A stretch of DNA of 64,000 bases from Porpolomopsis calyptriformis (lineage: Eukaryota > Basidiomycota > Agaricomycetes > Agaricales > Hygrophoraceae): the NCBI GenBank assembly GCA_951640195.1, contig OX621164.1:3329098-3393097 (forward strand), in the 5' to 3' direction. The notes beneath the pieces are model-generated. The model did not search any database. It was not told where the DNA came from and saw nothing but the letters and a program-made list of their open reading frames with translations. Numbering within the stretch: the first letter of the stretch is position 1; each line of letters starts with the position of its first letter. Below are positions 543 to 58,934 of this stretch, in pieces. A program made the translations under genes and the position numbers.

Positions 543-753
543 TGTCACAACTGTAGTTGCAAGTCTTTTCGTCAATCACAAGGCAGGCCTTGGAGCTTAA
601 TAAGTCTAGTAGGATGTAGAAGAAAGTCCTGACGGGGACGTCCTCATAAAGGGTGATGATTCCTTCTAAGTTAAGTTTTACTTCTACAAAGAAGTTGTTT
701 TGCGAGTTAAATCCGTTGTGTGCCTCTGCTGAGAGTTTAGGGAATATGGGCAT
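543..753 (-). CDS. ORF A of LTR-like copy 1 (N-terminal part, open at element end)
   Basis: It starts at the ATG at 753 (MPIFPKLSAEAHNGF) and stays open to the element border. This stretch is highly conserved in all four copies, with the core EGIITLYEDVPVRTFFYILL and SSKACLVIDEKTCNYSC unchanged or nearly so. It starts about 150 nt downstream of a TATA box (about 896-904). In an intact retrotransposon this would be the beginning of a Gag-like protein that starts inside the LTR and continues into the internal region, which is missing here. I do not recognise the family. Confidence 0.55.
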
Positions 754-895
754 GAACGATTGGCTCAGTAGTTATGGGTTTATGTTTCTCTTTTCTTGTT
801 CTGATGGAAAAGAAGTCTGATGATTCTGATTGCATTCGTGCTACTACAAGTAATCTTACAGGAGGATGAAGTGATGATCTGCTTTGCCCTCAGGG

Positions 896-1213
896 TTTAT
901 ATAGTATTTCTGAAATAGGAGTCATTATGAGTCAGCCTCCGCAGTCACCCCATTTTCTATTGTTCACAGCCTTCAAATAAGGTTTGCCATTGTTCCTAGT
1001 CATTCTGCAAAAGGCTGTGTGCTTCTGATGACTCAATTCTATTGGGCATAGCCTTCCGCAGAATGAGGCTGTGTTATCTCATGACTGGTTTCTATTGTTC
1101 TTCTGGTCATGAGATTGCTGTTGTTTCTATCTCTTGCCTGGCGTATCGGGTTTCTCTTCTTTGACTGAGGAACCTCCTTTTGGTCTTCCCTTTGTTTCTG
1201 AGCATATAAAAGG
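896..1213. promoter_or_regulatory. Divergent TATA boxes in LTR-like copy 1
   Basis: TATATAAA reads on the minus strand (896-904) ahead of ORF A, and CATATAAAAG reads on the plus strand (1203-1212) about 50 nt ahead of the spliced gene. The same pair is present in the other copies. The arrangement is a bidirectional promoter of about 300 bp. Confidence 0.6.
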
Positions 1214-1259
1214 TGTGGGGTTGTATCCCTACGCTTCAGTTCAGTCCTTGTCAATCATC

Positions 1260-2089
1260 ATGACTCCTTCCCACCAAGGCCACTACGTCCGATTCTTCAA
1301 GCAGTCTGGAGTGGTGCACCGCACTGCTCCTGTCTTTCTCGATTGCGATTCGTTTCACTACTACCTCCAGTGCATCCCCTCCGACGCCGACCTCTGTTGG
1401 TCTTCCTTCTCCTGTTTCGCTTGCGGTGGCAAGCACAAAGTCAAGAAATGTCCGTTCGTTCGCTGGCCAATCCAGCATGCTTGTGGGTTGATGGAGGATC
1501 CGCTTGGTGAGTATTTTGTTTTGTCTTTATTAGTCTGTGTTTGTTGATAATAGGCTTTCCTTTTCTTAGCTTGGGATGATGACGCCCCTCCCCCTACTTC
1601 CCAGCTCCCTTTAGAGGAGCAGGTTAATTGGGGGTCTGACAAATGGGCTGATTCCCTCCCTTCTGTCAAGAAGGAGGCAGTTGACTGGGCTGCCAGTCCC
1701 CCCTTCCGTCCTTGGACCCCTGGTCTAATGAGTTCTTTATCTAGTGGTAAGCTCTCAATTCTCTCACTCTCTTCATGATTGTTGACTCTTTATTCTTAGT
1801 GGAAGATTTGTCATCGTCGTTGACTAACGTCAACGTTAAGATCGAGGAGGAAGAAGTTCCTCCTAGTTTGTTATGGAGTCCCACCAACGATTGGTTGGGT
1901 GAGGAAGCGAGGAAGATAGCAATGAGTTTCGTCGAGGGGAAGGCTGCTGAGTTGCAGGCCTCTGGTGGTGACACTAATGGAGCAATCTACTGGGGTAACA
2001 AATTGGCTGCTTTGGATGGTCAAGTAGTTTCTAGTTTCATAGAGTTTTTGAGAGATAGTATGGTGCAGGAGATTGCCAAGACAGACTAG
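1260..2089 (+). CDS. Three-exon zinc-knuckle-like gene inside LTR-like copy 1 (gene B)
   Basis: Exons 1260-1506, 1570-1746 and 1800-2089; introns 1507-1569 and 1747-1799, both GT-AG. The product is about 237 residues. Exon 1 encodes MTPSHQGHYVRFFKQSG and a cysteine cluster CFACGGKHKVKKC, i.e. CX2CX3HX4C, one residue short of the retroviral zinc knuckle. Exon 2 is proline- and tryptophan-rich. Exon 3 encodes VPPSLLWSPTNDWLGEEA and FIEFLRDSMVQEIAKTD and looks helical. The splice phases join cleanly, and the same junctions work in copy 3. I chose the ATG at 1260 because the TATA box lies at 1203-1212, downstream of the earlier in-frame ATG at 1134. No family recognised; a nucleic-acid-binding role is inferred only from the CCHC-like cluster. 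Confidence 0.65.
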
Positions 2090-3949
2090 TATAAATAGTT
2101 AGTCGGACATGGACTCCTCCCTTTGTACAAGTAGTTTCCGCTGCCAACAAAGACAGCCCCCCTTCCAAAGAGAAAAGGCATAGAAAAGAAAGGAAAAGGA
2201 CAAAGAAAAGAGAGGAATTTTTAAGAGAGTGAACGCCAATTTCATGACACCTTTGATGTATCTCCACCAGAAGTTTGCACTGCCCAAGAAGGATTGGAGT
2301 TGTTTCACCATTTCTGGAATAGGCCAAGACATAATGGCATCAACCTTCTTCAGATTGGTGGTGATTCATCCTTTGGATAGAACTACTCCGAGGTAGATGA
2401 CTTCTTCCTTCTCGAACTGGCATTTGATGGGTTTGCATGAGAGTCTGTATCTCTTCATGATATCTAGAGTTTTAAAGGTCCAATATTGCAGTTCTTGTAA
2501 ATCATCTCCACAAACAAGCACATCGTCAATATAGATGAAAATGTTTCTGGAATCTAGGACTTCTTTGAATCTTGTGTTGATCATCCATTGAAAGGTGGCT
2601 GGGGAGTTTCATAAACCAAAGAACATTACGGTGGGTTCAAAAGCACCTGCTTCAGTGATGAAAGTGGCTTTCCATTCATCACCTTCCTTGATCCTAACAT
2701 TGTTGAATCCCCATTGGATATCCATGACCATGAACAGAGATGCTGTTAGGAGTTTCAGTCGTTGGAGAATTTGATGAAGAAGGGGAAGGGGATAGTAGTT
2801 AGGGACTGTGTGTTCATTGAGGTAGCGATAATCTTTGATAGGGCGTAAACCAGTGTTTTTACCTTTAGTGTTCACTTCCTCAGCTTTTTTCCCAAAGAAG
2901 AACAGAGAGACTTGTTTCAACTTGGAAGTCTGTATTCATCCAGTAGATAGGTTTTCATCAATAAACTTGTATAAGTGATCCATCTCAAGAGGGGACATTG
3001 CATATTTCGCACCTTTGACTGGTTTAAAGGTTTCATCCAGTTCTATGGCGTGGTCGAACTCTGAATGCAGTGGAAGGTGGTTGAAGGATCTTTGGCAAAG
3101 ACGCTAGAGTAGTCTTTCCAGTATACCTCCAGTACAAACTTTTGCATATCTTCTTCCACCATGCTAGCTCAGGATTCATCCAACTTTGATACACATCGAT
3201 TCATGGCCAGCTTGACCAATTCCATTCCTGGTGACTCCGCATCGCTGACTATCCATTGATGGAGGATCTCTTTGCTATCTAGAGCTAGTATTGCCTCTTT
3301 CCAATCGATGTTGGGATTGTGCTTTTTGAGCCATGGGAAGCCAAGGATAATATCTGTCTTGGATCTGAGATTGGTCACTTCCAATCGGATCTGTTCATTG
3401 TGTCCTCCAGGAGCCTCTAACCAAATATCAATATCGTTCTCGATGGGTCCACCTCAGTTTTCAGATCCATTGGCATTCCATATGGGGATTGGGGTTTCTA
3501 ATCATGTTAGAGTAAAATTGTGGCAAGTTGTGAAGGATTCATCCATGAAATTTCCAGAGGCTCTGCTATCAACCAGAGCAGTGGCCAGAACATGTCGACC
3601 AGTGTTGCTAGCTTCAATCCAAATGTCCAAGATGAGTCTAAGATTGCCTTCTTCAAGAGTACCAAGAATTTGGAATAGATTGCATGGGGTAGTGGTACAT
3701 TCTCGAGTAGATACGTCCATAATAGCAGGCAAAACATTCGGACTCCTTAAAAACCCTGTTCTTTCAGTTCCTTGACGAGCTGAGCTTTTCTCTCTTTCGG
3801 CCAGCGATTGATCCCACAGTTGTCCACCACTCGGATAGTCTCCTCCATAGTAGCTGGGGAAACCATCTCGTTGACTTGTTCTGTCTTGATACCTCGTATG
3901 TTTCATCCTCGACCTTGTCCTGTGTATTGTCTTCCTCATTTTCTGGCAG

Positions 3950-5736: not shown

Positions 5737-6745
5737 GTCACAATTCAAACTCCTCATTGTTCTTTTATCTATTATTCCTATTTCCTATTGTTCTCATTGC
5801 CCATTGTTCTCAAACATATATAAAGGGCCCCCTTTTGACTAGTGAGGAGTTCAGTTTACTCTCAGTTCACTTTTACCACACTTTATCCCCCCCCTCCCCC
5901 CTCTTCCCTTGAACTCACCACCTAGTAGTTAGTACCTAGTGCTACCCCTTATTGATACTACTTGTCTGTAGTCAATACATCCAATCTAGTCTAGTCTATT
6001 AAGCTTATACCCTGTGTAATTTCGCCTAAGCCCTCTTATGTAAAGAACCAATGTTAGGTTCGCGATAGACGAGTTATACCCCTAGTACCAAGTGGATAAC
6101 TAAGGATGGGCTGACCTTGCCCATCCAACTACTCTTATATACATGATACAGTACCCTATACCCTAATGACTAATCAAGGACTGTAAGTAGTGCTGACTAC
6201 ACAGTTAGACAGAGCCAGCTAAGCTATCACAAATCTAGTTTACATGATCTGATAAATCTAGTCAAAGATATGAGATAAGAAAGGGATGACTAACCATGAC
6301 CAAATAGGATATGTCTGTGGACCAGGTAACCAGTCCCGGACACGTATGGCATGGAATGCAATTGTAACAACCAACTTAGGAATTACCTCTTGACATATTC
6401 TGTAAGTTGAAGATAGCTATTGTGGACTATCTTATCTTACCCCAGCCCCTGCTTATTCATCACATTCTCAAAGTCTCAGTCCTTATTGGAGAGATCTCAC
6501 TGTGATACATATTCTTCTAAGTCAGCCATTGACTTAATTCTTGCTCTCTCAGTCAATACTATCCATTAAGTTTGGATAGCCTGTTTATCTGTACATCCTA
6601 GCCAAGGATTACTCAAGCCCCATTAAAGGAGGAAGTGATCATTACCCAATCAATCCATATCTCCCCCAAACAACTAGGACTTACTTGATTGATGTATAAC
6701 TCCAGTAGTTCTAGAAGTGAAGTATTTATATTTCACCTGATATAA
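5737..6745 (+). repeat. 5' LTR of element I (partial)
   Basis: It aligns with 27908-28594 and 48371-49052, from GTCACAATTCAAACTCCTC to TTCACCTGATA. It includes the TATA-like ACATATATAAAGGGCCCCC near 5813-5831 and is interrupted by the 318 bp solo LTR at 6052-6369. The left part is missing because E1 lies there. The internal region begins after it with TTTGGAGCCCAC, the likely primer-binding site. Confidence 0.78.
6052..6369 (+). repeat. Solo LTR (TGTTAGG..TGTAACA family)
   Basis: A 318 bp segment present in the LTR of element I but absent from both LTRs of element II. It starts TGTTAGGTTCGCG, ends CAATTGTAACA, and is flanked by ACCAA on both sides (6047-6051 and 6370-6374). The empty site in element II reads AGAACCAACTTAGG, which confirms insertion. 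The 142 bp segment at 18649-18790 also begins TGTTAGG and carries TTGTAACA near its end, so it may belong to the same broad class. Confidence 0.85.
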
Positions 6746-9211
6746 TTTGGAGCCCACTGTGAGGGGTATTGTGATTGATTGTAATCTCACTCCCCAAGTT
6801 ATTCAGACCCCACTCATCAACATAACTCCTGACTTAGTATTCAACTCTTACTATGTCTGGATAGTCTCAAGTCCAATCTCAGTTTACACGCACCCCAGAC
6901 ATGATGCCCCTTCTGGGACAGAAGTCTGCTTCACCCAAGTTCAGTGGAAGCTATGAGCAGATCAAGCACTTCCTCAGACCCTTTAATCAGCTATGTAAAG
7001 TCTACAATGTACCTGATGTGGAGAAGGGTGAACACCTGATTGACTATTGTTCTAGTAAAGTAGTCTAGTTAATTGAAGCCCTTGAAAGCTATAGGACCAA
7101 TGATTGGCCCAAGCTGGAAGCTGATCTCAATAGGTACTATGATACTGCCTTAAAGGAAACTCAATACATTGTCAAGGACCTACTCTCCTTCACTCATAAG
7201 TGGAAGACTAGGCAAATCTATTCATTAACACATCGGAAGAAGTATGAGAGAAGATTTATCACTATTGCAGGATGGCTACAAGCCAAGCAGAGAATCTCAG
7301 AAGATGAACAAGCTGCTTATTTCTGGAATGGAATTAACAAGACTCTCAGACAGGTAATTGAGGCCAGACTTATTAATGCTTCTGGAACTACCCCTCTGGA
7401 TGTTACTTCTCCATTCCCTATGAAGAAAGTAATCAAAGTAGCTGAAGTGTTATTTGAACGTAACTGGTTTGATATTAACCTAGGTGACTCTGACTCAGAT
7501 ATCCCTGGAAGGGATAATGAAACAGAGTCAGACACATCAAGTGATAACTCTTCATTATCTGATGAAGAAAGTGAAGCTGAAAGGAGACCTAGAAGGAAGA
7601 AGAAGAATAATAGTAAGAAGTTCCATAAGAGCAGATGGGATTCTGATAATGAAGATCTCAAGAAACCCTCAAAGAAGACTAGTCAGAAGAAAGAAGATCA
7701 CAAGGGTAAGAAGGCATCTAGCAAGTCTACTACTCCAGTCCAAGATGAAGTAGAATCTCTTGTTAAAGAGATGGGAAAACTCTCCCTAGATGATTTACAC
7801 TATGGACTTGCCTACTATAAAGCCCTCAAACTTGACCCTGATATTGCTAGGTGTATAAAACCACCTACTCTTCAAGTATCTTCCCAAGATCTTCTATACT
7901 TCCCTCTTCAAACACATTCCCTATATCCAATACTCCTAGGAACACTGGAGACACAATCACTTGTTATGGTTGTGGAAGTAAAGGATATGGAATGTCTAGT
8001 TGTCCCAAGATTGATGAACTCATTGCTTCAGGCACACTTATATGTGATGCAAACAGGAAGCTAGTATTCAAGAATGGTACTTTTATTCATCAACTCCCTG
8101 AAGAGACCTTTATCTAAGCTGTAGCAAGACTCACTCAAGACAAGACTAAGCCTATCCAGACTTATTTCCTTACTCTGCAAAGTGATTACTCAGATTACTA
8201 CCTATCAGAACCTGAGTTTGAGAAAGATGATTCAGGTGTATATGTAATCCCAGCCACTGAGTATGAACCAGAAGTCCAGGATGAGGATGTACAAGTTATG
8301 GCTGTAGACAGAGTCCCTCATAAGATTACTACAGCTAGGAAGGAAGTATTTGATGGAGTCTATCCCCCCATGAAGTCTAGAACCAAAAGGAAAGAAAGCA
8401 CAGCTGCTACCCAGGGTTCTCATCCATTCCCAAGCACTACACCTAAAGCTGCCCCCTTATGATTCCAAACTCATCTCCCAACTGAGGTACCAAAGCCTCA
8501 TCATGACAAAGACTTTATTAAGGCACTGCCTACACCTATTGATACCAGAGTTAAATGAATTCCTCCCACAGAAATTAATAAAGATATTGACATGAAGGAT
8601 ATAACTAGAAAATCCAGAGTTAAACAGACTACACCCCTACCCCAAGATACTACAGAATTAGTGCCCTAAGTCTCTACTAAATCTCCAGTCTGTCAATTAG
8701 AAATATCCTCTACAATTGGTGACAACCAGGTAGTTAATCGGATTCTTGACACATTAGTTACCCTGAAAGTCAGAGAAGTCCTAGGATCATCCAAGGAAAT
8801 ATCTGATAAACTCTCAGAAATGATCAAAAGGAAGAATGTGAAGACCACTGTTCTAGCTACTTCCTTTCTCACTAGGGACAGAGAGGAACTGATAAAGCTC
8901 CAGGTTGAATGTGATAAGCACCCTGTATCTGCTATCATTGACACAGGATCCCAATTGAATGTGGTTAGTAAGGATGCCTGGAAACTAATCCTTCAGAGAC
9001 CTAGGGACCTAACTAAGATGTTAGTTATGAATGATACTAATGGAGGTGTAGGAACCCTTGCTGGATTGGTATCTAATATCCCATTAACCTATGGAGGTAT
9101 TACTACCTATGCCAATCTCTTTATTGGGGAGTCAGTCCCCTTTGATTTATTACTTGGACACCCATGGCTACATGATAATCTAGTCATGATTGATAAAAGA
9201 ACACAGGGAAC

Positions 9212-9579
9212 TGTCACGAACACTTTTTTCCTTTTTCTTTTAGTCATGCTCAATTAGTCTTTGCTCCGTTTACCCTTCCGCTTTACCGCTTTACATACAG
9301 AGGCTAGTCACATGTACTTTCTTTCCGACTCTTCACGAGTCACATTCCGTTTCCGCTATTCTTTCTGTGACTCTTCACAAGTCACATTCCGTATTCTGCT
9401 TTGTAATCGTCCATACAACTGACTCATGCCGACTCAGGTAGTTAGTATATAAAGCCTGATCTCTAGTCAGTAGGTTAAGTTCGATTCCTAGTTAGCTCCC
9501 TCACTCTTTGGTCAAATTCTATTTCCTCATCAGCCCCTCCAATGCGAGAAGTAAAACCTTCGACCACTGAATCATAACA
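9212..9579 (+). repeat. 5' LTR of E2
   Basis: TGTCACGAACAC..ATCATAACA, 368 bp, with a TATA box (AGTATATAAAGCC) near 9447. Two copies of a palindromic GACTCTTCACRAGTCACATTCCG module lie upstream of the TATA box, plus TGACTCA sites, which resemble Gcn4/AP-1 sites. Confidence 0.9.
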
Positions 9580-9733
9580 AGAATCGAACTTCCTTCTTGC
9601 GCAACAAATCACTCTCACTCTGGATCCCACTGAAGACTTAACAAGGTCAATCTTTTCATCTGCGGATTCAGATACTCCCTTTCAACCAATAGTATTCCAA
9701 ACCCCTGCACAATCCATCATCCCTCTTTCCCCC

Positions 9734-11188
9734 TTGTCATCATCACTGAACTCAATGTCTCAAACATCTCAACAAGAGTATGAAGCCGAACAATCTGTTC
9801 CCACACCGGGACCCAGCAACATTCCCCCCACCATTCAAGAAGAAGAAGAAGATGTCGTCCCATTTAACATGGAACAAGAGCTCAAAGATCTGAGAGCACA
9901 AATCGACCAGTTCCGTGGCTGGTATTATAACGAGGTCGACGTAAATGATGAACTTTGTAAAGAGCTAAAAGCCCTCAAAGAAGGTCGACAAGAAGAATTT
10001 GAACCAGCCACCCCTCCCCCACGACAACAATCTATGCTTCAAGGACCTGGGCTTTCCCCATCAAACCCTTTTGTTTATGCCCCAAGAAGAACCCAATCTG
10101 TCCAACCCCCTTTCCAACCATCCTTTCCCACCAACCCTCAACCAACTACCCAGATGACTGTTCCCCCTGTGCTCCCTGCCCCTACCAAAATCAAAATTGC
10201 TGATCTGACCGAATACGATGGAACCCCAGAGAAGCTAGAAGACTTCATTCACCAATGTTGACTCAACTTTGTGGTCAAGGACTACAACAACAAACAGAAG
10301 GTCATCTATATGCTCTCCTATCTCAGTGACGGCAACCCACAGGCTTGGGGACGACTGTTTACAGAGACGGTTGACGGAATGAGGAACTACGTGTGGAATT
10401 ATGCAACATTTTTGGATGAATTTCGAGAAGCATTTGGAAGGATCAACCCAGTGGCGAAGGCGCAGATCGAGCTAGAGAAAGTAAAGATGACAGGAATGAT
10501 AGAAGACTACAACCTTCGGTTCATGCAGCATGCGACAAGAACTGAGTACAACGAGGCCGCCCTTCTTCGTTTTTACAAAGCCGGACTCCCCCAGCCAATC
10601 TGGACACGGATTTGCTCGATGGATAATATGCCATCAACTTTGCTGGATTGGATGACGAAAGCGGCCCAATTTGAGGAACAGTACCAGGAACAACGAGCCG
10701 AACAAGCATTGTGGTCAAGTTGAGACCAAAAAGGAAAGAAGTCCAAGACCAAGTCGAGTCCCTGAGGAAACCCTTCCTGCTCCACCACCACTACTTCATC
10801 CCCAATTAAACAAGAATCGAGAGAAGCCTCTCTCAAAACTGTGAAACGAGACAACTCCTCTATTACCTGCTACAATTGTGGCAAAAAAGGACACTACGCC
10901 AACGAATGTCGAAGCCCACACGCTGAAGATGTTCCGGCACATCAAGAGACCTCAACTTCTACTCAAGGAAAAGGAGGAAATTGCGGTTGAGGCAAAGGAT
11001 GAAATATCCGAATGATCAATCGGATTGACACAGAAGAACCGGAAGCGCGGATAGAGGAAGTACCGGAGGACAACGAGAAAGAAAAAAGAACGGCGAAGGA
11101 CAACTTGAAGGATATGGGAATTGCGAATTGGGACAAGGAGAGACGGGCTGCGCTAGCTCGAGCGTTAAAAGAGCAAAAGGATTTTTAA
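9734..11188 (+). pseudogene. E2 gag
   Basis: About 485 codons in one frame, broken only by TGA at 10259, 10721, 10988 and 11000. The N-terminal third is acidic and proline-rich. A capsid-like region follows from KIADLTEYDGTPEKLEDFI through MLSYLSDGNPQAWG to LLRFYKAGLPQPIWTRI. A zinc knuckle CYNCGKKGHYANEC (CX2CX4HX4C) sits near 10868-10910. The frame ends at TAA 11186-11188. Pol is in the -1 frame and is already open here, so Gag-Pol would be made by -1 frameshifting in the overlap before 11188. I see no perfect slippery heptamer. Confidence 0.82.
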
Positions 11189-13735
11189 TCCAGCCAAGTG
11201 CTGAAAGCCTGAGCACTTTGGCTGTGTCCCATGTATGTGTACCATCATCTATGAAAAGTTTTCATTTTCTTGGCACACTTGAACAGGGCAAAGGCACTCT
11301 CGAATTTTATCTTTGGATTACGAGTGCCAACAATCTTCGACGAGTGGCTATCATAGCACTCATTGACTCTGGCGCCTCAGGGAATTTTATTGACGAAGCA
11401 TTCGTTCGTCAAATGGAGATATCGACCTATCCGTTGGATGAGGTTATACCGGTACGAAATGCTGATGGTTCCGAGAACCGAGGAGGTTCCATCACGCATG
11501 ATACAGACCTGTTTATCGAGGCACCAGATTTATCTTTTCGAGAATGAATCCAGTTGGAGGTCACCAACTTAGGAAGAAAACAACAGGTCATCCTCAGCTT
11601 CCCATGGCTCTTGCGACACAACCCCACCATCAATTGGACAAAAGGCACCTTAACCTTTGCATCTGGTGACACGCTGTTCAGTAGTATACGAGTCAGAGTG
11701 TTGCCCCCACAGGAAGAACTCTACGTCTTTGATTCGAGTCTGAAACATGACTCTTTCATTCACTTGGTTGGAGTCAACCACTCCCGACCAGTTTCTATCG
11801 AGGAGGACATCAAATCCTTCATTCCCAGTCGTTATCATAATTTCTGGCGTGTTTTCCATACCGCAGAATTCGACAAACTCCCTCCTCAATACTCCTTTGA
11901 TCATGCGATCAACCTCTACCCAAACACTAAATTTCAAGTCAGAAAACTTTATCCTCTTTCTCCCTATGAACAGGTAGAACTTAACAAGTTTATTGATGAA
12001 AATCTCCAAACAGGTCGGATATGTCCGTCGAAATCACCTCAAGCTGCCCCTTTCTTCTTTGCGAAAAAAGCTGAAGAGATCAATGCCAAAGGTCTCAGTG
12101 CTGGTTTACGTCCTATCCAGGACTATCACTATATCAACTCAAAAACCATTCCTGATCGCTATCCCCTTCCCCTTTTATCAGAAATCCTCCAAGTACCAAA
12201 GCTCGCCACTGCTTCTCTCTTCACTGTTATCGATATTCGATGGGGATTTAATAACATATGACTCAAGGAAGGCAATGAATGGAAAGCAGCTTTCATCACC
12301 AATCGAGGACTCTTTGAACCGACCATTATGTTCTTTGGACTACGGAACTCCCCAGCATCTTTTCAATGAATGATAGATGTTCTCTTCAAACCTGTTCTGG
12401 ACTCTGGTTGTGTTTATATCTATATTGACGACATTCTTATCATGGGTGACACCCCTGAAGAAATCCGCCACTGGACCGACGAAACCCTTAAACTCATGGA
12501 GAAGAATCAATTATCCGCCAAACCCGTCAAATGCCAAATGGAGAAGACCTCTGTTACCTATCTTGGTACAATCATCAGCAAAGGTCAACTCGCTATCAAC
12601 CCAAAGAAGGTGGACACTATCATCAATTGGCCAACACCCCAGAAATTGCGAGATCTTCAATCATTCCTTGGCACTACCAACTTTTGGCGCTGCTATATCA
12701 AAAGTTTCTCCTCAGTGGTTCATCCTCTTTGTGGCCTTTTACGGAAAGACCAACCTTGGGATTGGTCTCCCTTATGTCAAAAAGCCTTTGAACAACTCAA
12801 ACATCTCGTCACCACAGCCCCTGTCCTTCTTACTCCCTGACCGGACCTCCCTTATCTCTTGGAGACCGATGCCTCTGATTTTGGTATTAGCGTGGTCTTG
12901 TCTCAGAAACACGACAATGGTTGGCACCCTGTCGGCTTTTTCTCGAAGTCCTTGCTCCCTGCCGAATATAACTATCCTACCCACGATCTGGAAATGCTTG
13001 CGATTATCACTTCCCTCAAGTACTGGTGCTATCTTTTAGAAGGCGCAAGGGATACTGTGTTGATAAAAACGGACAATTTAGCGCTCAAGTATTTCATGCA
13101 GAACAGATCCCTTTCCAGACGACAAGCACGTTGGATGGAATTCTTAGGTAGATTCAACTTCAATATTGAGTATTCCCCTGGAGTCAAAAACAAAGCCGAT
13201 GGACTCTCTCGCCGACCTGATCACCGCCGAACAGATAAAGAAGAACTAGAAGGTCAAGCCCTCCTTCCTCCTGAACGTTTCATCAATACTATCATTTCCA
13301 TGTCCGAACCCTCTTTCATGTCAAGACTTCATTTCCCCGACTTCGATCAAATCCCAGAGGACATTCGCATCAAACTATCTGATTCCTCTTCCAGCTACTC
13401 CTTCACTGACGGAATTGTGAGAGATGTAGGAGATCATATTGTCGTGCCAGCGGATGTATCGCTACGCACAGAGATAATTTGATTGACCCACTCCCTACCC
13501 CATGGAGGCTATCCCAGAATCAAGAAGACACGTGAGCTTGTGTTGCGGAACTACACCTGGAGTAGTGCTGCCCCTGACATCTGTCATGAAATTGGCGTTT
13601 ACTCTCTTAAAATTTCTCTCTTTTCTTCATTCTTTTCTTTTCTGTGCCTTTTCTCTTTGGAAGGGGGGCTGTCTTTATTGGCAGCGGAAACTACTTGTAC
13701 AAAAGGAGGAGTCCATGTCCGACTAACTATTTATA

Positions 13736-14566
13736 CTAGTCTGTCTTGGCAATCTCCTGCACCATACTATCCCTCAGGAACTCTACGAAACTAGAAACTA
13801 CTTGACCATCTAATGCGGCCAACTTATTACCCCAATAGATTGCCCCGTTGGTATCTCCACCAGAAGCCTGCAACTCAGCAGCCTTCCCCTCGACGAAACC
13901 CATTGCTATCTTTCTCGCCTCCTCACCCAACCAATCGTTAGTGGGGCTCCATAACAAACTAGGAGGAACTTCTTCCTCCTCGATCTTGACGTTGACGTTA
14001 GTCAACGACGATGACAAATCTTCGACTAAAAAGACAGGGAATCAGCAACCATGAAGAGAGCGAGAGAGTTAAAGGCTCACTACTAGACAAAGCACTTATT
14101 GGACCAGGGGTCCAAGGACGGAAAGGGGGGCTGGTAGCCAAGTCCTCAGGCTTAGCATCATCAAAAGGGAGGGGATACCCCCAACGATCGGAACTCCAAT
14201 CAACTCGCTCCTCTAAAGGGAGCTTGGAGGTAGGAGGAGGGGCGTCATCATCCCAAGCTAAAAAAGGAAAGCCTATTATCAACAAACACAGACTAATAAA
14301 GACAAAACAAGATACATACCAAGCGGATCCTCCATCAAGCCACAAACATGCTGGATTGGCCAGCAAACATACAGACACTTTCTGACCTTATGCTTGCCAC
14401 CGCAAGCAAAGCAAGAGAAGGAAGACCAGCAGAGGTCGGCGTCGGAAGGGATGCGCTGAAGGTAGTAATGAAATGAATCGCAATCGAGAAAGACAGGAGT
14501 GGTGCGATGCACCACTCCAGACTACTTGAAGAATCGGACGTAGTGGCCTTGGTGGGAAGGAGCCAT
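13736..14566 (-). pseudogene. Gene B in LTR-like copy 2 (broken)
   Basis: Same three-exon gene as at 1260-2089, from ATG at 14566 to a stop at 13736-13738. The zinc-knuckle-like cluster and exon 3 are well kept. The conserved FKQSG has a TAG in place of CAG, and the second donor site is altered, so this copy probably makes no protein. Its exon 2 carries RVDWSSDRWGYPLPFDDAK, a different version from copies 1 and 3, which suggests two subfamilies. Confidence 0.7.
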
Positions 14567-14614
14567 GATGATGAACAAAGATTGAACTGAAGCATAGGGA
14601 TACAACCCCACACC

Positions 14615-14940
14615 TTTTATATGCTCAGACACAAAGGGAAGACCAAAAGGAGGTTCCTCAGTCAAAGAAGAGAAACCCGATACGCCAGGCAAGAGATAGA
14701 AACAACAGCGATCTCATGACCAGAAAAACAATAGAAACCAGTCATGAGGTAACACAGCCTCATTCTGTGGAAGGCTATGCCTAATAGAATTAAGTCATCA
14801 GAAGCACACAGCCTTCCGCAGAATAACTAGGAACAATGGCAAACCTTAATTGGAGGCTGTGAACAATAGAAAATGGGGTGACTGCAGAGGCTGACTCATA
14901 ATGACTCCTACTTTAGAAATACTATATAAACCCTGAGGGC
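14615..14940. promoter_or_regulatory. Divergent TATA boxes in LTR-like copy 2
   Basis: CATATAAAAG reads on the minus strand (14615-14624), about 50 nt before the ATG of gene B. TATATAAA reads on the plus strand (14933-14940), 133 nt before the ATG of ORF A. This matches copies 1, 3 and 4. Confidence 0.6.
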
Positions 14941-15072
14941 AAAGCGGATCATCACTTCATCCTCCTGTGAGATTACTTGTAGTAGCACGAACGCAATCAG
15001 AATCATCAGACTTCTTTTCCATCAGAACAAGAAAAGAGAAACACAAACCCACAACTACTGAGCCAACCGTTC

Positions 15073-15283
15073 ATGCCCATATTCCCTAAACTCTCAGCAG
15101 AGGCACGCAACGGATTCAACCCACAGAACAACTTCTTCATAGAAGTAAAACTTCACTCAGAAGGAATCATCACTCTTTACGAAGACGTCCCTGTCAGAAC
15201 TTTCTTCTATATCCTACTAGACTTATTGAGCTCCAAGGCCTGCCTTGTGATTGATGAAAAGACTTGCAACTACAGTTGTGACA
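15073..15283 (+). CDS. ORF A of LTR-like copy 2 (open at element end)
   Basis: MPIFPKLSAEARNGF to the border. Seventy codons are open and nearly identical to copies 1 and 3, ending ..EKTCNYSCD at the TGTGACA terminus. Read as an LTR, this is the 5' coding part of the missing internal region. Confidence 0.55.
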
Positions 15284-17154: not shown

Positions 17155-17234
17155 TCCTTCCCCTCCACCACACCCATCAACACTCTCGAAGTCACCTTGA
17201 ATTTCGGGATGAAATTCCTTTTGATGTGGGTGTA

Positions 17235-19267: not shown

Positions 19268-19348
19268 GAAATTCAAGACTCCCTCTTACCTAGCTTCTTT
19301 CTGCAAGAGTCCCTGGTCAAGATTCATCTGACACCAACCGCTTTCTCA

Positions 19349-21310: not shown

Positions 21311-21312
21311 AG

Positions 21313-25728: not shown

Positions 25729-25730
25729 GA

Positions 25731-35005: not shown

Positions 35006-35007
35006 CT

Positions 35008-40102: not shown

Positions 40103-40313
40103 TGTCACAACTGTAGTTGCAGGTCTTTTCATCAATCACAAGGCAGGCCTTGGAGCTTAATAAGTCTAAGAGGATATAGAAAAAGGTTCTGACAGGAACG
40201 TCTTCATAAAGGGTGATGATTCCTTCCGTGTTAAGTCTGACTTCTACAAAGAAGTTCTGTTGTGGGTTAAATCCGTTACGTGCCTCTGCTGAGAGTTTAG
40301 GGAATATAGGCAT
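40103..40313 (-). CDS. ORF A of LTR-like copy 3 (open at element end)
   Basis: ATG at 40313; MPIFPKLSAEARNGF through EDVPVRTFFYILLDLLSS to the element border. Nearly identical to copies 1 and 2. Confidence 0.55.
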
Positions 40314-40696
40314 ACACAGTTGGCTCGGTAATTGTGGGTTTATGTTTCTCTTTTCTTGTTCTGATGGAAAAGAAATCTGATGATTCTGATTGCGTTTGTG
40401 CTACTACAAGTAATCTCACAGGAGGATGAAGTGATGATCCGCTTCGCCCTCAGGGTTTATATAGTATTTCTAAAATAGGAGTCATTATGAGTTAGCCTCC
40501 ACAGTCACCCCCTGTTTCTATTGTTCACAGCCTCCAGTTTAAGGTTCGCCATTGTTCCTAGTCATACTGCGGAAGGCTGTGTGCTTCTGTTGATTCAATG
40601 CTGTTGGACACTGCCTTCCGCAGCATTGGGGCTGTGTTGTCTCATGACTGGTTCCTATTGTTCTTCTGGTCATGAGATCGCCGTTGTTTCTATCTC

Positions 40697-41654
40697 TTGT
40701 CTGGCATATCGGGTTTCTCTTCTTTGACTGATGAACCTTCTTTTGGTCCTCCCTTTGTTCCTAGTCGTATAAAAGGTGTGGAGTTGTATCCCTATGCTTC
40801 AGTTCAATCCTTTTCAATCATCATAACTCCCTCCCACCAAGGCCACTACATTCGATTCTTCAAGCAGTCTGGAGTGGTGCACCGCACTGCTCCTGTCTTT
40901 CTTGATTGCGATTCATTTCATTACTACCTCCAGCGTATCCCCTCCGATGCTGACCTCTGTTGGTCTTCCTTCTCCTGCTTTGCTTGCGGTGGCAAGCACA
41001 AAGTCAAGAAGTGTCCATTCATTCGCTGGCCAATCCAACATGCTTGCGGCTTGATGGAGGATCCGCTTGGTGAGTACTTTGTTTTGTCTTTATTAGTCTG
41101 TGTTTGTTGATAATGGGCTTTCCCTTTCTTAGCTTGGGATGATAACGCCCCTCCCCCTACTTCCCAGCTCCCTTTGGAGGAGCAGGTCAATTGGGGGTCC
41201 GACAAGTGGGCTGACTCTCTTCCTTCCGTCAGGAAGGAGGCACTTAACTGGGCTGCCAGTCCCCCCTTCTGTCCTTGGACCCCTGGTCTATTAAGTCCCT
41301 TATCTAGTGGTAATGCTCTCAACTCTCTCGCCCTCTTCATAACTGCTGATCTCTTATCTCTTAGTTGAAGATTTGTCTTTGTTGTTAACCAATGTTAACA
41401 TCAAGATTGAAGAAGAAGAAGTTCCTCCTAGTTTGTTGTGGAGTCCTACTAATGATTGGCTGGGTGAAGAGGTGAGGAAGATTGCAATGGGCTTTGTTGA
41501 GGGGAAGGCTGCTGAATTGCAGGCTTCTGGTGGAGATACCAATGGGGCAATCTATTGGGGTAATAAGTTGGCCACATTAGATGGTCAAGTAGTTTCAAGT
41601 TTCATAGAGTTTCTGAGGGACAGTATGGTGCAGGAGATTGCCAAGATGGATTAG
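40697..41654 (+). CDS. Gene B in LTR-like copy 3
   Basis: Exon 1 ends at 41069, then exons 41133-41309 and 41365-41654; introns 41070-41132 and 41310-41364 are GT-AG. All three exons are open and join in frame. The protein keeps CFACGGKHKVKKC and the exon 3 core PPSLLWSPTNDWLGEE. The ATG used in copy 1 is ATA here, so translation would need another start. No in-frame ATG upstream could be confirmed, because codons other than ATG can open this frame near 40697. It is nearly intact apart from the start. Confidence 0.6.
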
Positions 41655-42715
41655 TCTGAATAGTTAGTCGGACATGGACTCCCCTTTTTGTACAAATAGT
41701 CCCTGCTGCCAATAAAGACAGCCCTTCCAAAGAGAACAGGCATAGAAAAGAAAGGAAAAGAGCAGATTTTTAAGAGAGTGAACGCCAATTTTATGACACC
41801 CCTTCATAAATACGTCATATGATAGATATCACGAATATGTAAATGGTACCGGGCACCATTGGGATGTCCGCACAGAATCAGATGCTTCCTCTGATTCTGA
41901 TATCTCCTCTGAAGATGATGTATCATTTGTATACCCTTCCAATACATTATCTTCCCTTTACATGTCTGATCTAAGTCACAATCAAGAGACTCATATCTGT
42001 CCTCCCTCCCCTATGAAACCTATGGTCTTCAGAGACACCCCCAATACCCTTACTTCCCTTCAATCAACTCACTATCCAGAGCAGACCCTGCTCAACCAGT
42101 TGCAGGCAGAGCCTGTACTCAGCTCAGCAGAGCCCATCTACATCCTGAATATCACAGCCAAGGGGGAAGGCTTGCCTTCACCCACACGCCCCACTATGCA
42201 GTCCCTCATTGGGCCTGACCATTTCATTGACAGTGCCAAGGTCCACCTAGCCTTCTTGGCTGGAATCCGCAAGGCCCTTCATACATGTATTGGGCATACT
42301 GCTACTATCCTCAACACCCCTGCCTGGAAGACTTATGTCCATACCATGCCAGTCAGTAACCCAGCCCACCATTACTTTCTATACCACAGCCAACTGTTCC
42401 CTCATTGGAGGAAAGAAGACTCATGCACCCCATACCAGATGCCTTGGTGCCCTTATCCTAATCCATTTGTTTTTCCTGTTGAGCAGGAGAGAGCTGGGTG
42501 TAACCCATTGCTCTCAGAAGAAGAAGCAGAGTTTTTTCTGTATTCAGCTGCTGTATTTCAAGCAGCAAACAGACTACTTCTTACTGATGCAATCAATGCA
42601 GTTCTCAACATGGAATTTCATAACCCCTCCCTTATCTCAGATCTGTTTAATGAAGGGTACTTTGGTCCTTACTTTAACACCAGAAACCTTCAGGTTTATC
42701 CTCAGGATTAAACCT

Positions 42716-52151: not shown

Positions 52152-53746
52152 CAGTGGGCCAAAAAACTGTTTCAATGTTTTGCAAGTTTGACTTGACAGT
52201 ATTATATCTCATGATATAAAATAGAGAGAATTATGAAAATATTATAGAAGATAGCCCTTCACCTTGGGTTTAAAACAAGCTACTAAATGTTACAATTGGT
52301 AAAGTTTTTCCAGAGATATTCCTTGTCAAATCTGGTTATATCATTGAAACAGTTGTTTTGCTGAGGGCTTATACTAGTATTTAGTACTTAGTATAGCCTC
52401 CCTTAGCCTTCAATACAGCTTCTACATGTCTAGGCATACTCTCTATGAGTTTCTGACATACCTCCACTCCTATTTTATCCCACTCTACTTATACCCTCTC
52501 CCACAACTCCACAATTCCATTAGGGGTACCTCAGTCAGCTAACCTCCTTTTCAAGTGACTCTAGAGATGCTCAATAGGATTGAGATCAGGGGATTGGGCA
52601 GGCCACAAGAGGACTTCATATCTATGATCCTTCAACTATTTTTGAGCCTTCTTGCAGGTATATTTGTCTTGTTGGAAGATAAAGTCTTCTGGGGTCTTGT
52701 CATAGAATTGGATAGTTTGTTGAAGCTCCTCCACCAGAATCTTAATATAAAGGTCTCCATCCATTATTCCATCAATCTTGCAAGCATACCCAATCCCTTC
52801 CCAAGCCATGCAGCCCCACATCATGAGAGAACCACCTCCAAACTTCTTTGTCCCCTCTACTAGCCTATCACTCAAACCCTCCCCTGGCTTTTTCCATACC
52901 CATTTCCTACCATCTGACCCTAAGCGATTGATTTTAGTTTCATCTGACCACACCACCTTCTTCCAGTCCTCTGTGGTCCAATCTTGATCCCTTAAAGCAA
53001 AGTCCATTCTCTCCTTCCTATGCCTCTTAGTGAGTAAAGGTCTTTTCTTCTTCACCACAGCCTTTATCCCCACTTCTTTCAAGCCATTTTGAACAGTTTT
53101 GGAAGAGAGAGGTTGGTTGGTAACATTCCTAAGCATTTGGGTAACTTCCACAGCATTTTCAACCTTCCCAGAGCCAATAAGACAAATTGCATAGTGAATA
53201 TTAGAGGTAGAAAGCTTTGAAGGACATCCTCCAGAAGATTTGTAGAGATAAGGGCAATGTCTGGAGCATAGTCTGGAGATAGTAGCATTGGAAGTACTAG
53301 TTATATCTGAGATTTGGTGACCAGAATAACTAGAATCAACAAGGGAGAGAATGTAATTGCAGTCAGTAGTAGAAAGGCTTTTCATGATGATGGTGGTCAA
53401 GTTCAACTTTCTCTTTGGGTTTGTTTGTTACTGTTCAACACTCACATGATCCACAGGTCACTTTTGGAACCAAACATATCATAACAGTCTTCACTTATAA
53501 GTTAAAATATTATCTTTTCTAGATTTTAGTACCTTAGCAAAACAACTGTTTCAATGATATTACCAGATTCGAAATGGAATATCCCTTGAAATACTAGACT
53601 GATTGTCACATTTATAGGCTTGTTTTGAACCCAAGATGAAGGGCTATCTTTTCTAATATTCTTATAATTTCATCTATTTGATATCAAAGGATATAATAAT
53701 ATCAAGTCAAACTTGCCAAATATTGAAACAGTTTTTTGGCCCACTG
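52152..53746 (-). mobile_element. Tc1/mariner element with long terminal inverted repeats
   Basis: 1595 bp, flanked by TA on both sides. The termini read CAGTGGGCCAAAAAACTG in inverted orientation, and similarity between the arms continues for about 220 bp. Each arm has a 13-bp motif AACTGTTTCAATG at its outer end and the same motif inverted at its inner end (52165, 52342, 53544, 53721). Transposase is on the minus strand. Confidence 0.93.
52381..53406 (-). pseudogene. Tc1-like transposase (DDE), inactive
   Basis: 342 codons in frame including the final stop. An N-terminal helix-turn-helix region (ISDITSTSNATISRLCSR) is followed by the linker KRHRKERMDFALRDQDW. Catalytic Asp in VVWSDETKINR, second Asp in FIFQQDKY, third acidic residue in SPDLNPIEHL. 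Only 31 residues separate the last two instead of the usual 34, so a three-residue deletion is likely after QQD. Four internal stops in the last third (TAG, TAG, TGA, TAA), each explainable by one C:G to T:A change. Confidence 0.9.
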
Positions 53747-55789: not shown

Positions 55790-56590
55790 AATCATGCAAA
55801 AATATGCAGGAATATGCAGGAATATGCAAGAATATGCAAGAATATGTAGGAATATTCAAAAGAATGCAGGAATATGCAAAAGAATGCAAGAATATCCAAA
55901 GGAATGCAAGAATATCCAAAAGAATGCAAGAATATCCAAAAGAATGAATAGAAAATATACAAAAGAATGCAAGAATATCCAAAAGAATGAATAGAAAATA
56001 TGCAAAATTATGCAGAGTTGTGCAAAGTTATGCAGAGTTGTGCAGAGTTGTGCAAAGGTGTGCAAAGTTATGCAGAGTTGTGCAGAGTTGTGCAGAGTTG
56101 TGCAAAGGTGTGCAAAGTTATGCAGAGTTGTGCAGAGTTGTGCAGAGTTGTGCAAAGGTGTGCAAAGTTATGCAGAGTAGTGCAGAGTTATGCAAAGTAG
56201 TGCAAAGTTATGCAGAGTAGTGCAGAGTTATGCAAAGTAGTGCAAAGTTATGCAGAGTAGTGCAGAGTTATGCAAAGTAGTGCAAAGTTATGCAGAGTTG
56301 TGCAAAGCTATGCAGAGTAACTCTGCACAACTCTGCACAACTCTGCATAACTTTGCACACCTTTGCACAACTCTGCATAACTTTGCATAACTCTGCATAA
56401 CTTTGCATAACTCTGCATAACTTTGCACAACTCTACACAATTCTATTCTTTACACACCTTTGTATAATCCTGCACATTCCTGCATAATCCTACACATTCC
56501 TGCATATTCCTGCACATTCCTGCATATTCTTGTACATTCCTGCACATTCTTGCATATTCCTGCATATTCCTGCATTCTTTTGCATATTCC
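55790..56590. repeat. Mirror-arranged tandem repeats of FB1
   Basis: About 10-bp units (GCAGGAATAT, later GCAAGAATATCCAAAAGAAT) and about 10-21-bp units (TGCAGAGTTGTGCAAAGTTA) run to 56318. The complementary units run outward to 56590. A single strand could fold into a hairpin of several hundred bases. Confidence 0.85.
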
Positions 56591-56753
56591 TGTCATGAAA
56601 TTGGCATTCACTCTCTTAAAATTCTGCTCTTTTCTTCACTTTTCTTTGTTTTCACATCTTTTCTCTCTGGAGGGGGCTGTCTTTATTGGCAGCAGAAACT
56701 ATTTATACAAGAGGGGGAGTCCATGTCTGATTAGCTATATTAAACTAATCCAT

Positions 56754-57316
56754 TGATGCAATGTGGAGCCATCTGAGCTCTGGGATCTGCCCTGAGAGAT
56801 GATGGGAGGCACAATAGAAAGGAGCTATCAAAGAAATCATAAAAATCAAAGAAATAGAAGAAATCGGAAATTCAGAGCACTCTCTAGAGTGCTAGAGGCA
56901 GTCAAAGAGGCTCAAACATGAAGGACTGGATGTGGGACGATGGAATCTATCTTCCTTCTCTATGATACAAACATATCTACAAGTAAATATATCTGTGAAA
57001 ACAAAGATCCTTTTATATGCTATATAGTAAAGGGATGAGACTTCTGAACAAAGCCACCAGTGAAAGGGTCAATGGAAACAATGGAAATCTACACAATGGA
57101 CATCTGGCTATCAGATGCATCCTTTGATATGAGCTGCAATCACGGATCGAAGGATCGAAGAATTCGAAGAAATTTGGAGAATTCAGAGATAAATCACTGG
57201 ACAGGAAGCTGAATCGTGTAGTCAAGGACATCATAGAAGTGTAGTAGACATCTGGGGGATCACGTCGATATATAAAACATGTCCTCCAGAGCTCAGGGGA
57301 CCAAGGGGTTGTATCA
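56754..57316. repeat. 563 bp insert in copy 4
   Basis: Absent from the other copies. It starts TGATGCAA, ends TTGTATCA, and CAGAGCTCAG recurs in inverted orientation near both ends. It is flanked by CCAT and CTAT, an approximate 4-bp duplication. Either a solo LTR (TG..CA) or a short inverted-repeat element; no coding frame. Confidence 0.6.
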
Positions 57317-58126
57317 CTATCTTGGCTATCTCCTATACCATACTATCCCTCAGGAACTCCATGAAACTCGAAACTACTTGACCATCTAATGTGGCCAACT
57401 TATTTCCCCAATAGATTGCCCCATTGGTATCTCCACCAGAGGCCTGCAACTCAGCAGCCTTCCCCATCACAATCTTTCTTACTTCCTCACCCAACTAATC
57501 ATTGGTGGGACTCCACAACAAACTGGGAGGATTTTCTTCCTCCTCGATCTTGACATTGATATTGGTCAATGACATTGACAGATCTTCCACTAAGAAATAA
57601 GGAGTCAACAAATATGAAGAGAGTGAGAGAGTTTAGAGCTTACAACTAGAAACAGGACTTGGACCAGGGGTCCAAGGACAGAAGGAGGGACTGGCAGCCT
57701 AGTGCTCAGGCTTGGGATCAGCAAAGGGGAGAGGGTGCCCCCAACAATTGGAACTCCAATCAACTCGCTCCTCTAAAGGGAGCTGGGAAGTAGGGGGAGG
57801 GGTGTTATCCCTAGCTAAAAGAAAGGGAAAGCCTATTATCAATAAACAAAGACTGATAGAGACAAAACAAGATACTCACCAAGTGGATCCTCCATTAAGC
57901 CACAAGTATGCTAGATCAGCCAGCAAACATATGGACACTTCTTGACCTTTTGCTTGCCACCACAAGCAAAGCAGGAGAAAGACGACCAGCAGAGGTCAGC
58001 ATCAGAGGGGATACGCTAAAGGTAGTAATGGAATGAATTGCAATCAAGAAAGATGGGGGCAGTGCAATGCACAACCCCAGACTGCTTGAAGAATTAGATG
58101 TAGTGACCTTGGTGGGAGGGAGTCAT
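57317..58126 (-). pseudogene. Gene B in LTR-like copy 4 (broken)
   Basis: ATG at 58126 and the zinc-knuckle region are recognisable. Exon 2 has a TAG, and the 563 bp insert separates the last codons. Exon 2 follows the copy 2 type. Confidence 0.65.
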
Positions 58127-58934
58127 GATAATTGACAAGGATTGAACTGAAGCATAGGGATACAACCCCTCACCTTTTATATGCCTACAGGCAAAGGGAG
58201 GACTAAAAGAAGCTTCCTCAGTCAAAGAAGAGAAACCTGATACACTGGGCAAGAAATAGAAACAATAGTGATCTCATGACTAGGAGAACAATGGGAACCA
58301 GTCATGAGACAACACAGCCCACTGCTGTGGAAGGCTATGCCCAATAGAGTTGAGTCATCAGAAGCACACAGCCTTCCACAGCATGACTAGGAACAATAGC
58401 AAACCTTAAATCGGAGGCTGTGAACAAATGGAAAAAGAGGGTGACTGCAGAGGCTGACTCATAATAACTCCTACTTAGGAAATACTATATAAACCCTGAG
58501 GGTGAAGCGGATCATCACTTCATCCTCCTGTGAGATTACTTGTAGTAGCATGAATGCAATCAGAATCATCAGACTCCCTTTCAATCAGACAAGGAAAGAG
58601 AAACACAAACTCAAAACAATTGAGCCAACTGTTCATACCTATATTCCCTAAACTCTCAGCAGAGGCATGCAACAGAACTTCTTTGTAGAAGTCAAACTTA
58701 ACACTGAAGGAATCATTACCCTTTATGAAGACGTTCCTATCAGAACCTTTTTCTATATCCTCTTAGACCTATTGAGCTCCAAGGCCTGCCTTGTGATTAA
58801 TGAAAAGACTTGCAACTACAGTTGCAACAATTCCTGCATATTCTTGCATTTGTTTTGCATTTGTTTTGCATGATTTTGTATTACTAAATCAGATAGAAAT
58901 TAAATTTTGTCCAATCCAGGCCCTCATACCTTGC

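Follow-up and report, generated by a model that had tools for sequence, protein, structure and literature searches.

Solo LTRs of a chromovirus in Porpolomopsis calyptriformis with a spliced antisense gene in their predicted U3 region

Four solo LTRs and the element to which they belong

The window analysed here, a 64-kb stretch of contig OX621164.1 of Porpolomopsis calyptriformis, contains four inserts at the coordinates given in the earlier note, each flanked by the 5-bp target-site duplication (TSD) claimed there. The positions are as follows:

543..2249, minus strand (the element sense strand): solo LTR copy 1, TSD CCTTT on both sides
13582..15283, plus strand (the element sense strand): solo LTR copy 2, TSD ACATC
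40103..41798, minus strand (the element sense strand): solo LTR copy 3, TSD CCCCT
56591..58829, plus strand (the element sense strand): solo LTR copy 4, TSD ATTCC, split by another repeat
56754..57316, no strand assigned: foreign repeat of about 563 bp inside copy 4, with the ends TGATGCAA...TTGTATCA

Copies 2 and 4 lie in the opposite orientation to copies 1 and 3. The length of copy 4, 2.2 kb, is due to the insertion of the foreign repeat, which occurs at at least 39 other places in the genome at 90-92% over 56754-57316 (best 40 of 399 candidates scored). Ends of the TGTCA...TGACA type, as previously proposed for all copies, are exact in copies 1-3, while copy 4 ends with ...CAACA. Similarly, the proposal that every copy resides in another mobile element holds for copies 1 and 2, which are located within pol of other Ty3 elements, and for copy 3, which lies within a repeat that has another copy near 26.9 kb (26930-26956), one resembling the empty site; it is not established for copy 4.

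The window holds single LTR copies only, and most copies observed are single, as would fit the alternative raised in the earlier note, namely that the inserts are an independent element, compact and non-autonomous, for which a Ty3 integrase acts in trans. However, a genome search with copy 1 and an interior piece, with inspection of 15 interior loci, identified paired direct copies of the 1.7-kb sequence around a gag-pol interior elsewhere in the assembly. At seven of the 15 loci both LTRs are complete, with TG...CA ends and in direct orientation, all seven pairs are flanked by an identical 5-bp duplication, one per pair, and the PBS and the polypurine tract (PPT) lie exactly at the inner LTR edges. 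These seven complete pairs, in direct orientation around the same gag-pol interior, reject the independent element, to which we assign virtually no probability. As the earlier note had preferred, all four inserts represent solo LTRs of one family, and the sequence of copy 1 also forms the LTR pairs of full elements such as L009 and L010. A perfect 5-bp duplication is present in 26 of the 29 distinct copies whose flanks were compared (30 flank rows, with L012 and L047 representing one place). As to the others, the right flank of L050 is element interior, L013 adjoins a fragment of another copy, and in L002 the duplication is absent.

Among the matches listed, the LTR occupies about 147 separate places on 14 of the 17 contigs of the 33.5-Mb genome, compared to 15 substantial interior matches. 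This count combines 40 of 45 copy-1 rows (five partial ones were dropped), 150 listed of 331 matches and 40 further rows, with neighbours up to 1,750 bp apart merged; copies interrupted by an insert may have been counted twice. As the genome searches scored the best 40-150 candidates each, all copy numbers are partial and represent lower bounds. One contig, C17, is mitochondrion-like, with a NAD1 match containing TGA codons.

The element is 8.76 kb long, with a 5.35-kb interior (gag-PR-RT-RNaseH-IN-chromodomain) between LTRs of 1.7 kb. In L010, a piece-by-piece search returned the Pfam domains RVP_2, RVT_1, RT_RNaseH, Integrase_H2C2 and rve in this order, and a chromodomain (PF00385, E 1e-15) is located at the integrase C-terminus, downstream of rve and SH3_Tf2-1. 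The element is a Ty3/gypsy chromovirus. The nearest named polymerase relatives, with 45-50% identity, come from Grifola, Ganoderma, Phanerochaete and Trametes, and other, closer ones reach up to 58% over the whole piece. Eight further interiors, all near-complete, share 94.9-97.9% identity with the L010 interior. As gag-pol contains in-frame stops in all ten interiors examined, none of these ten looks autonomous at present.

In ten of ten elements, the best complement to the PBS within the LTR is positioned 27-31 nt after the sense TATA box. The score of the complementary run is 11 in six elements, 10 in one and 8 in three; among 300 shuffles of one LTR (that of L009), the score was at most 10, and a score of 8 was also reached. 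Thus, six of the ten elements exceed all 300 L009 shuffles in PBS pairing, and the three with a score of 8 pair less well. The pairing suggests that the element is probably self-priming like Tf1; for Tf1/Tj1 of fission yeasts, the excerpted text of PMC4600332 describes a PBS whose complement is the 5' end of the mRNA of the element itself, and here we infer the same from sequence. The leader also contains a TGG further in, where a tRNA primer could match.

A divergent promoter and a spliced coding gene within U3

The predicted regions of copy 1 and the antisense gene in all four copies are:

543..876, minus strand: predicted R-U5 of copy 1
863..876, minus strand: predicted 5' end of the element mRNA and putative self-primer, with its complement in the PBS that follows the 5' LTR; placed by TATA spacing and PBS complementarity
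877..2249, minus strand: predicted U3 of copy 1, with the divergent promoter and the entire antisense gene
895..903, minus strand: TATA box of the sense promoter, which drives the element, TATATAAAC; 41 of 42 copies match exactly
1204..1213, plus strand: antisense-gene TATA box, ATATAAAAGG; 39 of 42 copies match exactly
1260..1506, plus strand: exon 1, copy 1, with a CX2CX3HX4C motif; internal-branch omega 0.16
1507..1569, plus strand: intron 1, copy 1, GT-AG
1570..1746, plus strand: exon 2, copy 1, the least constrained exon
1747..1799, plus strand: intron 2, copy 1, GT-AG
1800..2089, plus strand: exon 3 including the stop, copy 1, the most constrained exon
13736..14566, minus strand: antisense gene, copy 2 (exons 14566-14320, 14257-14081, 14025-13736); stop at codon 15
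40823..41654, plus strand: antisense gene, copy 3 (exons 40823-41069, 41133-41309, 41365-41654); start codon ATA, not ATG
57317..58126, minus strand: antisense gene, copy 4, decayed (exons 58126-57880, 57814-57644, 57589-57317); several stops

The three copies in which the antisense-gene TATA box is not exact keep TATAAAAG at this position. The ATG begins 47 bp past the last base of the box, and the antisense transcript is predicted to start about 25-30 nt after ATATAAAAG. The gene resides within both LTRs, antisense to gag-pol, and not between pol and the 3' LTR; its stop is separated from the LTR edge by 160 bp in copy 1 and by 154 bp in copy 2. The predicted product comprises 237 amino acids, with a zinc-knuckle-like motif (CX2CX3HX4C) and a conserved C-terminal part; for the exon 2 segment, a second version is present in other copies. 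A complete three-exon gene had been proposed for each of the four copies. The gene is confirmed, but its frame is intact in copy 1 only; in copy 4, exon 3 ends at the edge of the insert (57317).

Both introns have GT-AG borders in all 42 aligned LTR copies. The total exon length is 714 in 34 copies, 711 in six and 708 in one, the 42nd being copy 4, which is cut by the insert; intron lengths vary (62-66 and 53-58), and exon indels keep the frame. The frame is intact in 25 of the 42 copies, or in 21 of 34 without the eight (L022-L029) that were fetched by protein similarity and are therefore biased toward conserved genes. On internal branches, we found N 107 and S 235, with changes at the three codon positions of 66/34/242 and an omega of 0.21, compared to 0.77 for a pseudo-frame in the promoter and 2.6 and 3.1 for shifted frames; these controls reject a chance ORF. 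When the eight protein-fetched loci and copy 4 were dropped, internal omega across the remaining 33 copies was still 0.21 (p 4e-30), with 0.16 for exon 1, 0.35 for exon 2 and 0.13 for exon 3. Third codon positions are on average 0.19 apart among the 42 copies. The antisense gene is coding, and the previous claim that the LTR contains an entire gene running antisense to the transcript of the element is supported, with evidence of selection.

The LTR pairs of seven elements, which record changes after insertion, gave N 71 and S 42 (omega 0.74, p 0.13), compatible with neutrality; by codon position, these changes are distributed 47/20/46, and six involve stops. Terminal branches yielded an omega of 0.41-0.42 (0.31 for exon 3, p 3e-16), which we put down to pre-insertion history because the LTR pairs give 0.74. 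There may be weak residual constraint after insertion, as the LTR-pair value is below 1 and second-position changes are few. Constraint on internal branches together with near-neutral LTR pairs indicates selection on replicating elements, and not detectably on resident copies.

The encoded protein matched none of 293 candidates at E 0.001 in a search of 5.8 billion proteins, and none of 4581 candidates gave an alignment at E 1 (best candidates scored in both cases). Pfam returned no match for any of six family members at E 10 within the HMMER filters, TRP28 (PF04195) included, and a PDB sequence search gave one weak, unspecific row (E 0.028). AlphaFold models of exon 1 (pLDDT 47) and exon 3 (pLDDT 52) were too poor for use. 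The 150 listed of 331 genome matches are all 79-99% identical to the query and, checked in part, look like family copies.

Alternative explanations and a possible role of the protein

Leaving the function aside, we consider it highly probable that the inserts are solo LTRs of a chromovirus whose U3 contains a selected, spliced antisense gene. Another reading would be that the antisense unit acts as RNA, in antisense or siRNA control of the element, and that its open frame is incidental. The excerpted text of PMC7264820 considers antisense transcription from LTRs as a means of retroelement regulation, and such a transcript would overlap with the genomic RNA in its 3' part. However, RNA action alone predicts neither the codon-position bias of 66/34/242 and the omega of 0.13-0.16 in exons 1 and 3 nor the frame-keeping indels and conserved splice sites; as the sole function it is contradicted by the codon evidence, and we regard this explanation as very improbable. 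It appears unlikely, too, that a cellular gene was recently captured in U3 and is carried as a passenger. Introns and a promoter of its own do resemble a host gene, and transduction is mentioned as a possible source of the extra ORFs of plant elements (PMC7264820, in part), but the gene is present in 42 of 42 aligned LTR copies with diverged third positions and under purifying selection, the listed genome matches resemble family copies, and no relative was found among the best candidates scored from the 5.8 billion proteins. A remote host relative of the gene may nevertheless exist.

The gene might also be kept for the host, domesticated or beneficial as proposed for the sag gene of endogenous MMTV, with the LTR as its vehicle. 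In line with this, many copies are intact, terminal-branch omega is 0.41, and the LTR gene has six stops in total over 237 codons in each of 17 LTRs from ten elements, compared to 54 in the gag-pol pieces of nine of these elements and five in the tenth; according to excerpts of PMC3026287, most endogenous mouse MMTVs likewise retain sag while the virion genes decay. However, change between paired LTRs is as expected under neutrality and includes stops, and the strong constraint lies on branches common to several copies. We therefore consider maintenance for the host rather unlikely, although one domesticated copy may be present among the many.

For a gene selected as part of the element, the mechanism is most probably as follows. 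The LTR is as long as 1.7 kb because its U3 contains the accessory gene. From predicted start sites, the 300-bp divergent promoter would direct element RNA one way and a three-exon mRNA for the 237-residue protein the other. As the gene lies between the PPT and R, every round of reverse transcription places it in both LTRs, and its introns survive retrotransposition because the gene is antisense to the genomic RNA, from which they cannot be spliced. LTR-LTR recombination leaves gene and promoter in a solo LTR. We tentatively suggest that the protein could be a nuclear accessory regulator acting in trans from resident copies, e.g., in anti-silencing or in control of the element's own divergent promoter. 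It might further be speculated, with considerable doubt, that the LTR is a self-contained gene-delivery unit and that the dispersed solo LTRs, on the order of 100 loci, form a trans-acting pool with a regulatory or helper role toward the few full elements; an antisense U3 gene with its own promoter would avoid intron loss, double with each insertion and persist in solo LTRs.

Comparison with known systems and implications

There are precedents for genes encoded in an LTR, such as MMTV sag, and for extra ORFs in antisense orientation, as in Grande, Retand and Boty; Tf1 and Tj1 are not known to have an LTR gene. The body of HTLV-1 HBZ lies mostly outside the LTR, and the gene would hence be absent from a solo LTR. 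HBZ resembles the present gene as an antisense accessory gene with a spliced form and a promoter in the 3' LTR (PMC10186651, in part). The earlier note reasonably calls genes contained entirely in an LTR rare, but MMTV sag provides a precedent: as described in the excerpts of PMC3026287, the exceptionally long LTR of MMTV (about 1.3 kb) is likewise due to an encoded accessory protein. In contrast, sag has sense orientation and is expressed from spliced viral mRNAs, whereas the present gene runs antisense and possesses a TATA box of its own as well as internal introns; MMTV has an unrelated host, and a sequence relation was neither found nor expected.

Among fungi, Boty/BcGypsy1 of Botrytis cinerea, also of the Ty3/gypsy type with an extra antisense gene near the 3' end, has brtn antisense to gag-pol between pol and the 3' LTR (PMC7264820 and PMC8365987, citing Zhao et al. 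2011; both in part). Compared by description only, the present gene differs in lying wholly in U3, twice per element and also in solo LTRs, and in being spliced. An antisense accessory ORF is shared by Grande (gene23), RIRE2, Retand (TRP28) and PvRetro13, and that of Grande has its own promoter and a nuclear product (excerpts of PMC7264820 and PMC11963269). In these excerpts the plant ORFs sit between pol and the 3' LTR and introns are not mentioned, whereas the present gene is spliced and located in the LTR; the TRP28 domain of Retand had no match in the six members of the present protein family searched at E 10. Crapaud of Podospora is likewise a fungal chromodomain LTR element, in which variation is concentrated in U3 and interior and LTR evolve differently; the excerpted text of PMC10787394 does not mention a U3 gene. 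Our literature search, with most subscription papers and Repbase outside its scope, returned no account of a spliced antisense gene that lies entirely within U3 or the LTR and is hence present in solo LTRs.

The gene represents a clear case of a spliced protein gene that is part of an LTR and selected at the level of the mobile element, and intron retention offers a reason for its antisense placement. Constraint before insertion with none detected after it provides a test that can be reused for other accessory ORFs, such as those of Grande and Retand. For annotation, the roughly 147 places among the matches listed in the 33.5-Mb genome could pass as a host gene family. Solo LTRs, usually seen as inert scars, are predicted to be still able to express an element protein and, if the trans-acting pool proves true, they would be active players in the life cycle of the element.

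The element and its solo LTRs

The features of the window considered here are:

543-2249, copy 1 of a 1.7-kb LTR-like insert
13582-15283, copy 2, inverted relative to copies 1 and 3
40103-41798, copy 3, oriented as copy 1
56591-58829, copy 4, inverted relative to copies 1 and 3
56754-57316, repeat of about 563 bp inserted in copy 4, with ends TGATGCAA...TTGTATCA
9212-17606, another Ty3/gypsy element, in which copy 2 is nested
18789-26197, a further Ty3/gypsy element
30217-37452, a third such element; in all three, LTR-like direct repeats measure about 360-480 bp
6365-8364 and 28213-30218, 2-kb repeat pair, 94% identical
52636-53427, Tc3-like transposase fragment (PF01498)

Searching the window's own assembly (33.5 Mb, 17 contigs) with copy 1 gave at least 45 matches, of which 40 span essentially all of it (best 40 of 292 candidates scored), including two pairs in the same orientation about 5.35 kb apart (loci L009 and L010). 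Reading of 15 interior loci, these two and 13 more from an interior-piece search, revealed LTR-interior-LTR elements of about 8.76 kb. Both LTRs are complete in seven loci, all seven with identical outer 5-bp duplications; in the remaining eight, at least one LTR is cut short, broken up or beyond the sequence retrieved. A piecewise search of the L010 interior yielded Pfam-type matches to Retrotrans_gag, RVP_2, RVT_1, RT_RNaseH, Integrase_H2C2, rve, Tf2-1 SH3 and Chromo. From the paired LTRs with their duplications and the interior domains it follows that the element is a Ty3/gypsy chromovirus and that the window copies are solo LTRs. The earlier note had favored solo LTRs over a compact non-autonomous element moved in trans by a Ty3 integrase, and the direct pairs around a gag-pol interior bear this out. 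In-frame stops occur in gag-pol of all ten interiors examined. When the listed matches of three genome searches are merged, LTRs occupy about 147 separate places, spread over 14 of the 17 contigs, compared to 15 interiors found as substantial matches; thus, most copies, a subset of which was inspected individually, are probably solo LTRs.

Each window copy is surrounded by a perfect 5-bp duplication of its own, as previously noted. Copies 2 and 3 align to copy 1 at 88-91% identity and copy 4 at about 83%; the extra length of copy 4 is due to its inserted repeat, which occurs in at least 39 other genome places at 90-92% and around which flank inspection revealed no clear target duplication. Elsewhere, three LTR copies adjoin or lie within other copies of the same LTR, two (L011, L012) inverted and with 5-bp duplications, one (L013) in the same orientation and without.

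The sequence TTAGGACGAAGTG... lies directly behind the 5' LTR, and the best LTR match to its reverse complement is located 27-31 nt downstream of a conserved sense TATA box in ten of ten elements, with run scores of 11 in six, 10 in one and 8 in three (maximum 10 in 300 shuffles of one LTR). The same arrangement is described for self-priming Tf1 and Tj1 (PMC4600332), and the present element is probably self-priming in like manner. Based on this location, R would begin near position 876 of copy 1 (minus strand) and U3 would occupy the rest up to 2249. All nine elements whose sequence reaches the 3' LTR edge have a purine-rich tract, ending GGGGGTAA, ahead of that LTR.

Since the neighbouring Ty3 repeats measure only about 360-480 bp, the 1.7-kb LTR looks, judged from length, as though a gene with its promoter (a cassette of about 1.2 kb) had been added to an LTR of ordinary size. 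Reverse transcriptase pieces of these three neighbours are 44-47% identical to the LTR-gene family (longer matches). Open frames in the 2-kb repeat pair (7069-8064, 331 aa; 29015-29947, 310 aa) matched no Pfam family, and no Pfam match was obtained for frames of 392 and 423 aa (42251-43429, 60889-62160) in transposon-rich sequence.

A spliced gene within U3

The LTR gene resides in U3 and runs antisense to the transcript of the element. In copy 1 it comprises:

three exons, of 247, 177 and 290 nt, the last with the stop codon
two introns, 63 and 53 nt long

The three-exon antisense gene proposed earlier is upheld by the alignment, in which both introns are kept, with GT...AG ends, in 42 of 42 copies (length ranges 62-66 and 53-58). 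The exons total 714 nt in 34 copies, 711 in six and 708 in one, the remaining one is copy 4, which its insert interrupts. Twenty-five of the 42 copies have an intact frame, or 21 of 34 when eight loci fetched by protein similarity (L022-L029) are excluded. Upstream, ATATAAAAGG is exact in 39 of 42 copies, and the ATG follows 47 bp after it. None of the 150 matches listed (of 331) in a genome protein search covered residues 1-237 in one piece. In L042, L044, L049 and L040, exons 1 and 3 are alike while exon 2 is a second version that shares about 60% identity with the usual form and looks like a swapped segment.

The 237-aa protein has a CX2CX3HX4C motif, invariant in six aligned variants and with a nearly invariant His among 29 exon-1 sequences. 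It also contains an acidic stretch, and its C-terminal part is conserved. We take the motif to be zinc-knuckle-like after the CX2CX4HX4C pattern. No relatives were found among the best candidates scored in protein database searches, or by Pfam and PDB sequence searches. AlphaFold models of exons 1 and 3 were too poor for use (pLDDT 47 and 52), the C-terminal part being drawn as helices in such a model.

Selection and age of the LTR gene

Substitutions were counted by parsimony on a FastTree tree. On internal branches of the 42-copy set, non-synonymous changes number 107 and synonymous ones 235 (66/34/242 by codon position), which against a spectrum-matched expectation of 235:107 gives an omega of 0.21, compared to 2.6 and 3.1 in shifted frames and 0.77 in a promoter pseudo-frame; for terminal branches omega is 0.42 (shifted frames 1.4 and 1.9, promoter 1.1). 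Without copy 4 and the eight loci from the protein search, 33 copies remain, with an internal omega of 0.21 (p 4e-30; exons 1/2/3: 0.16, 0.35, 0.13) and a terminal omega of 0.41 (0.54, 0.76, 0.31). As paired LTRs of one element are identical at insertion, their differences are post-insertion: seven pairs, 1.4-2.9% apart, show 71 non-synonymous and 42 synonymous differences (47/20/46 by codon position), with omega at 0.74 (p 0.13). Our reading is that purifying selection acted while the element lineage replicated and is not detectable in resident copies, the terminal branches being a mixture of pre- and post-insertion regimes. Transitions account for 225 of the 233 pair differences and CpG-type sites for 178 (L009, L010, L039, L041, L042, L044, L046), which suggests deamination of methylated C, a methylation-linked C-to-T mutation of the family.

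Among ten elements, the LTR gene differs pairwise by means of about 0.06-0.07/0.05/0.16-0.17 at codon positions 1/2/3 and a pol piece by 0.026/0.027/0.068, a coding pattern of similar ratio. Divergence of the LTR gene is more than twice that of the pol piece. The LTR types thus seem to predate the expansion of the current interior, a pattern that recombination among LTR variants would give; in crapaud, too, interior and LTR evolve differently (PMC10787394).

A possible role

An accessory gene encoded in an LTR has a precedent in MMTV (PMC3026287), and no report of a gene that lies wholly within U3 and is antisense, spliced and self-promoted was found in the literature searched. Position, strand, conservation and element-level selection of the LTR gene are established by the data. 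Lying between the PPT and R, it would be copied into both LTRs; being antisense, its introns would escape recognition in genomic RNA; and, carrying its own promoter, it may stay expressible in solo LTRs. By analogy to Grande gene23 and HBZ (PMC7264820, PMC10186651), it might be speculated, at somewhat less than even confidence, that its likeliest role is to regulate, as an accessory protein in the nucleus, transcription or silencing of the element in trans.
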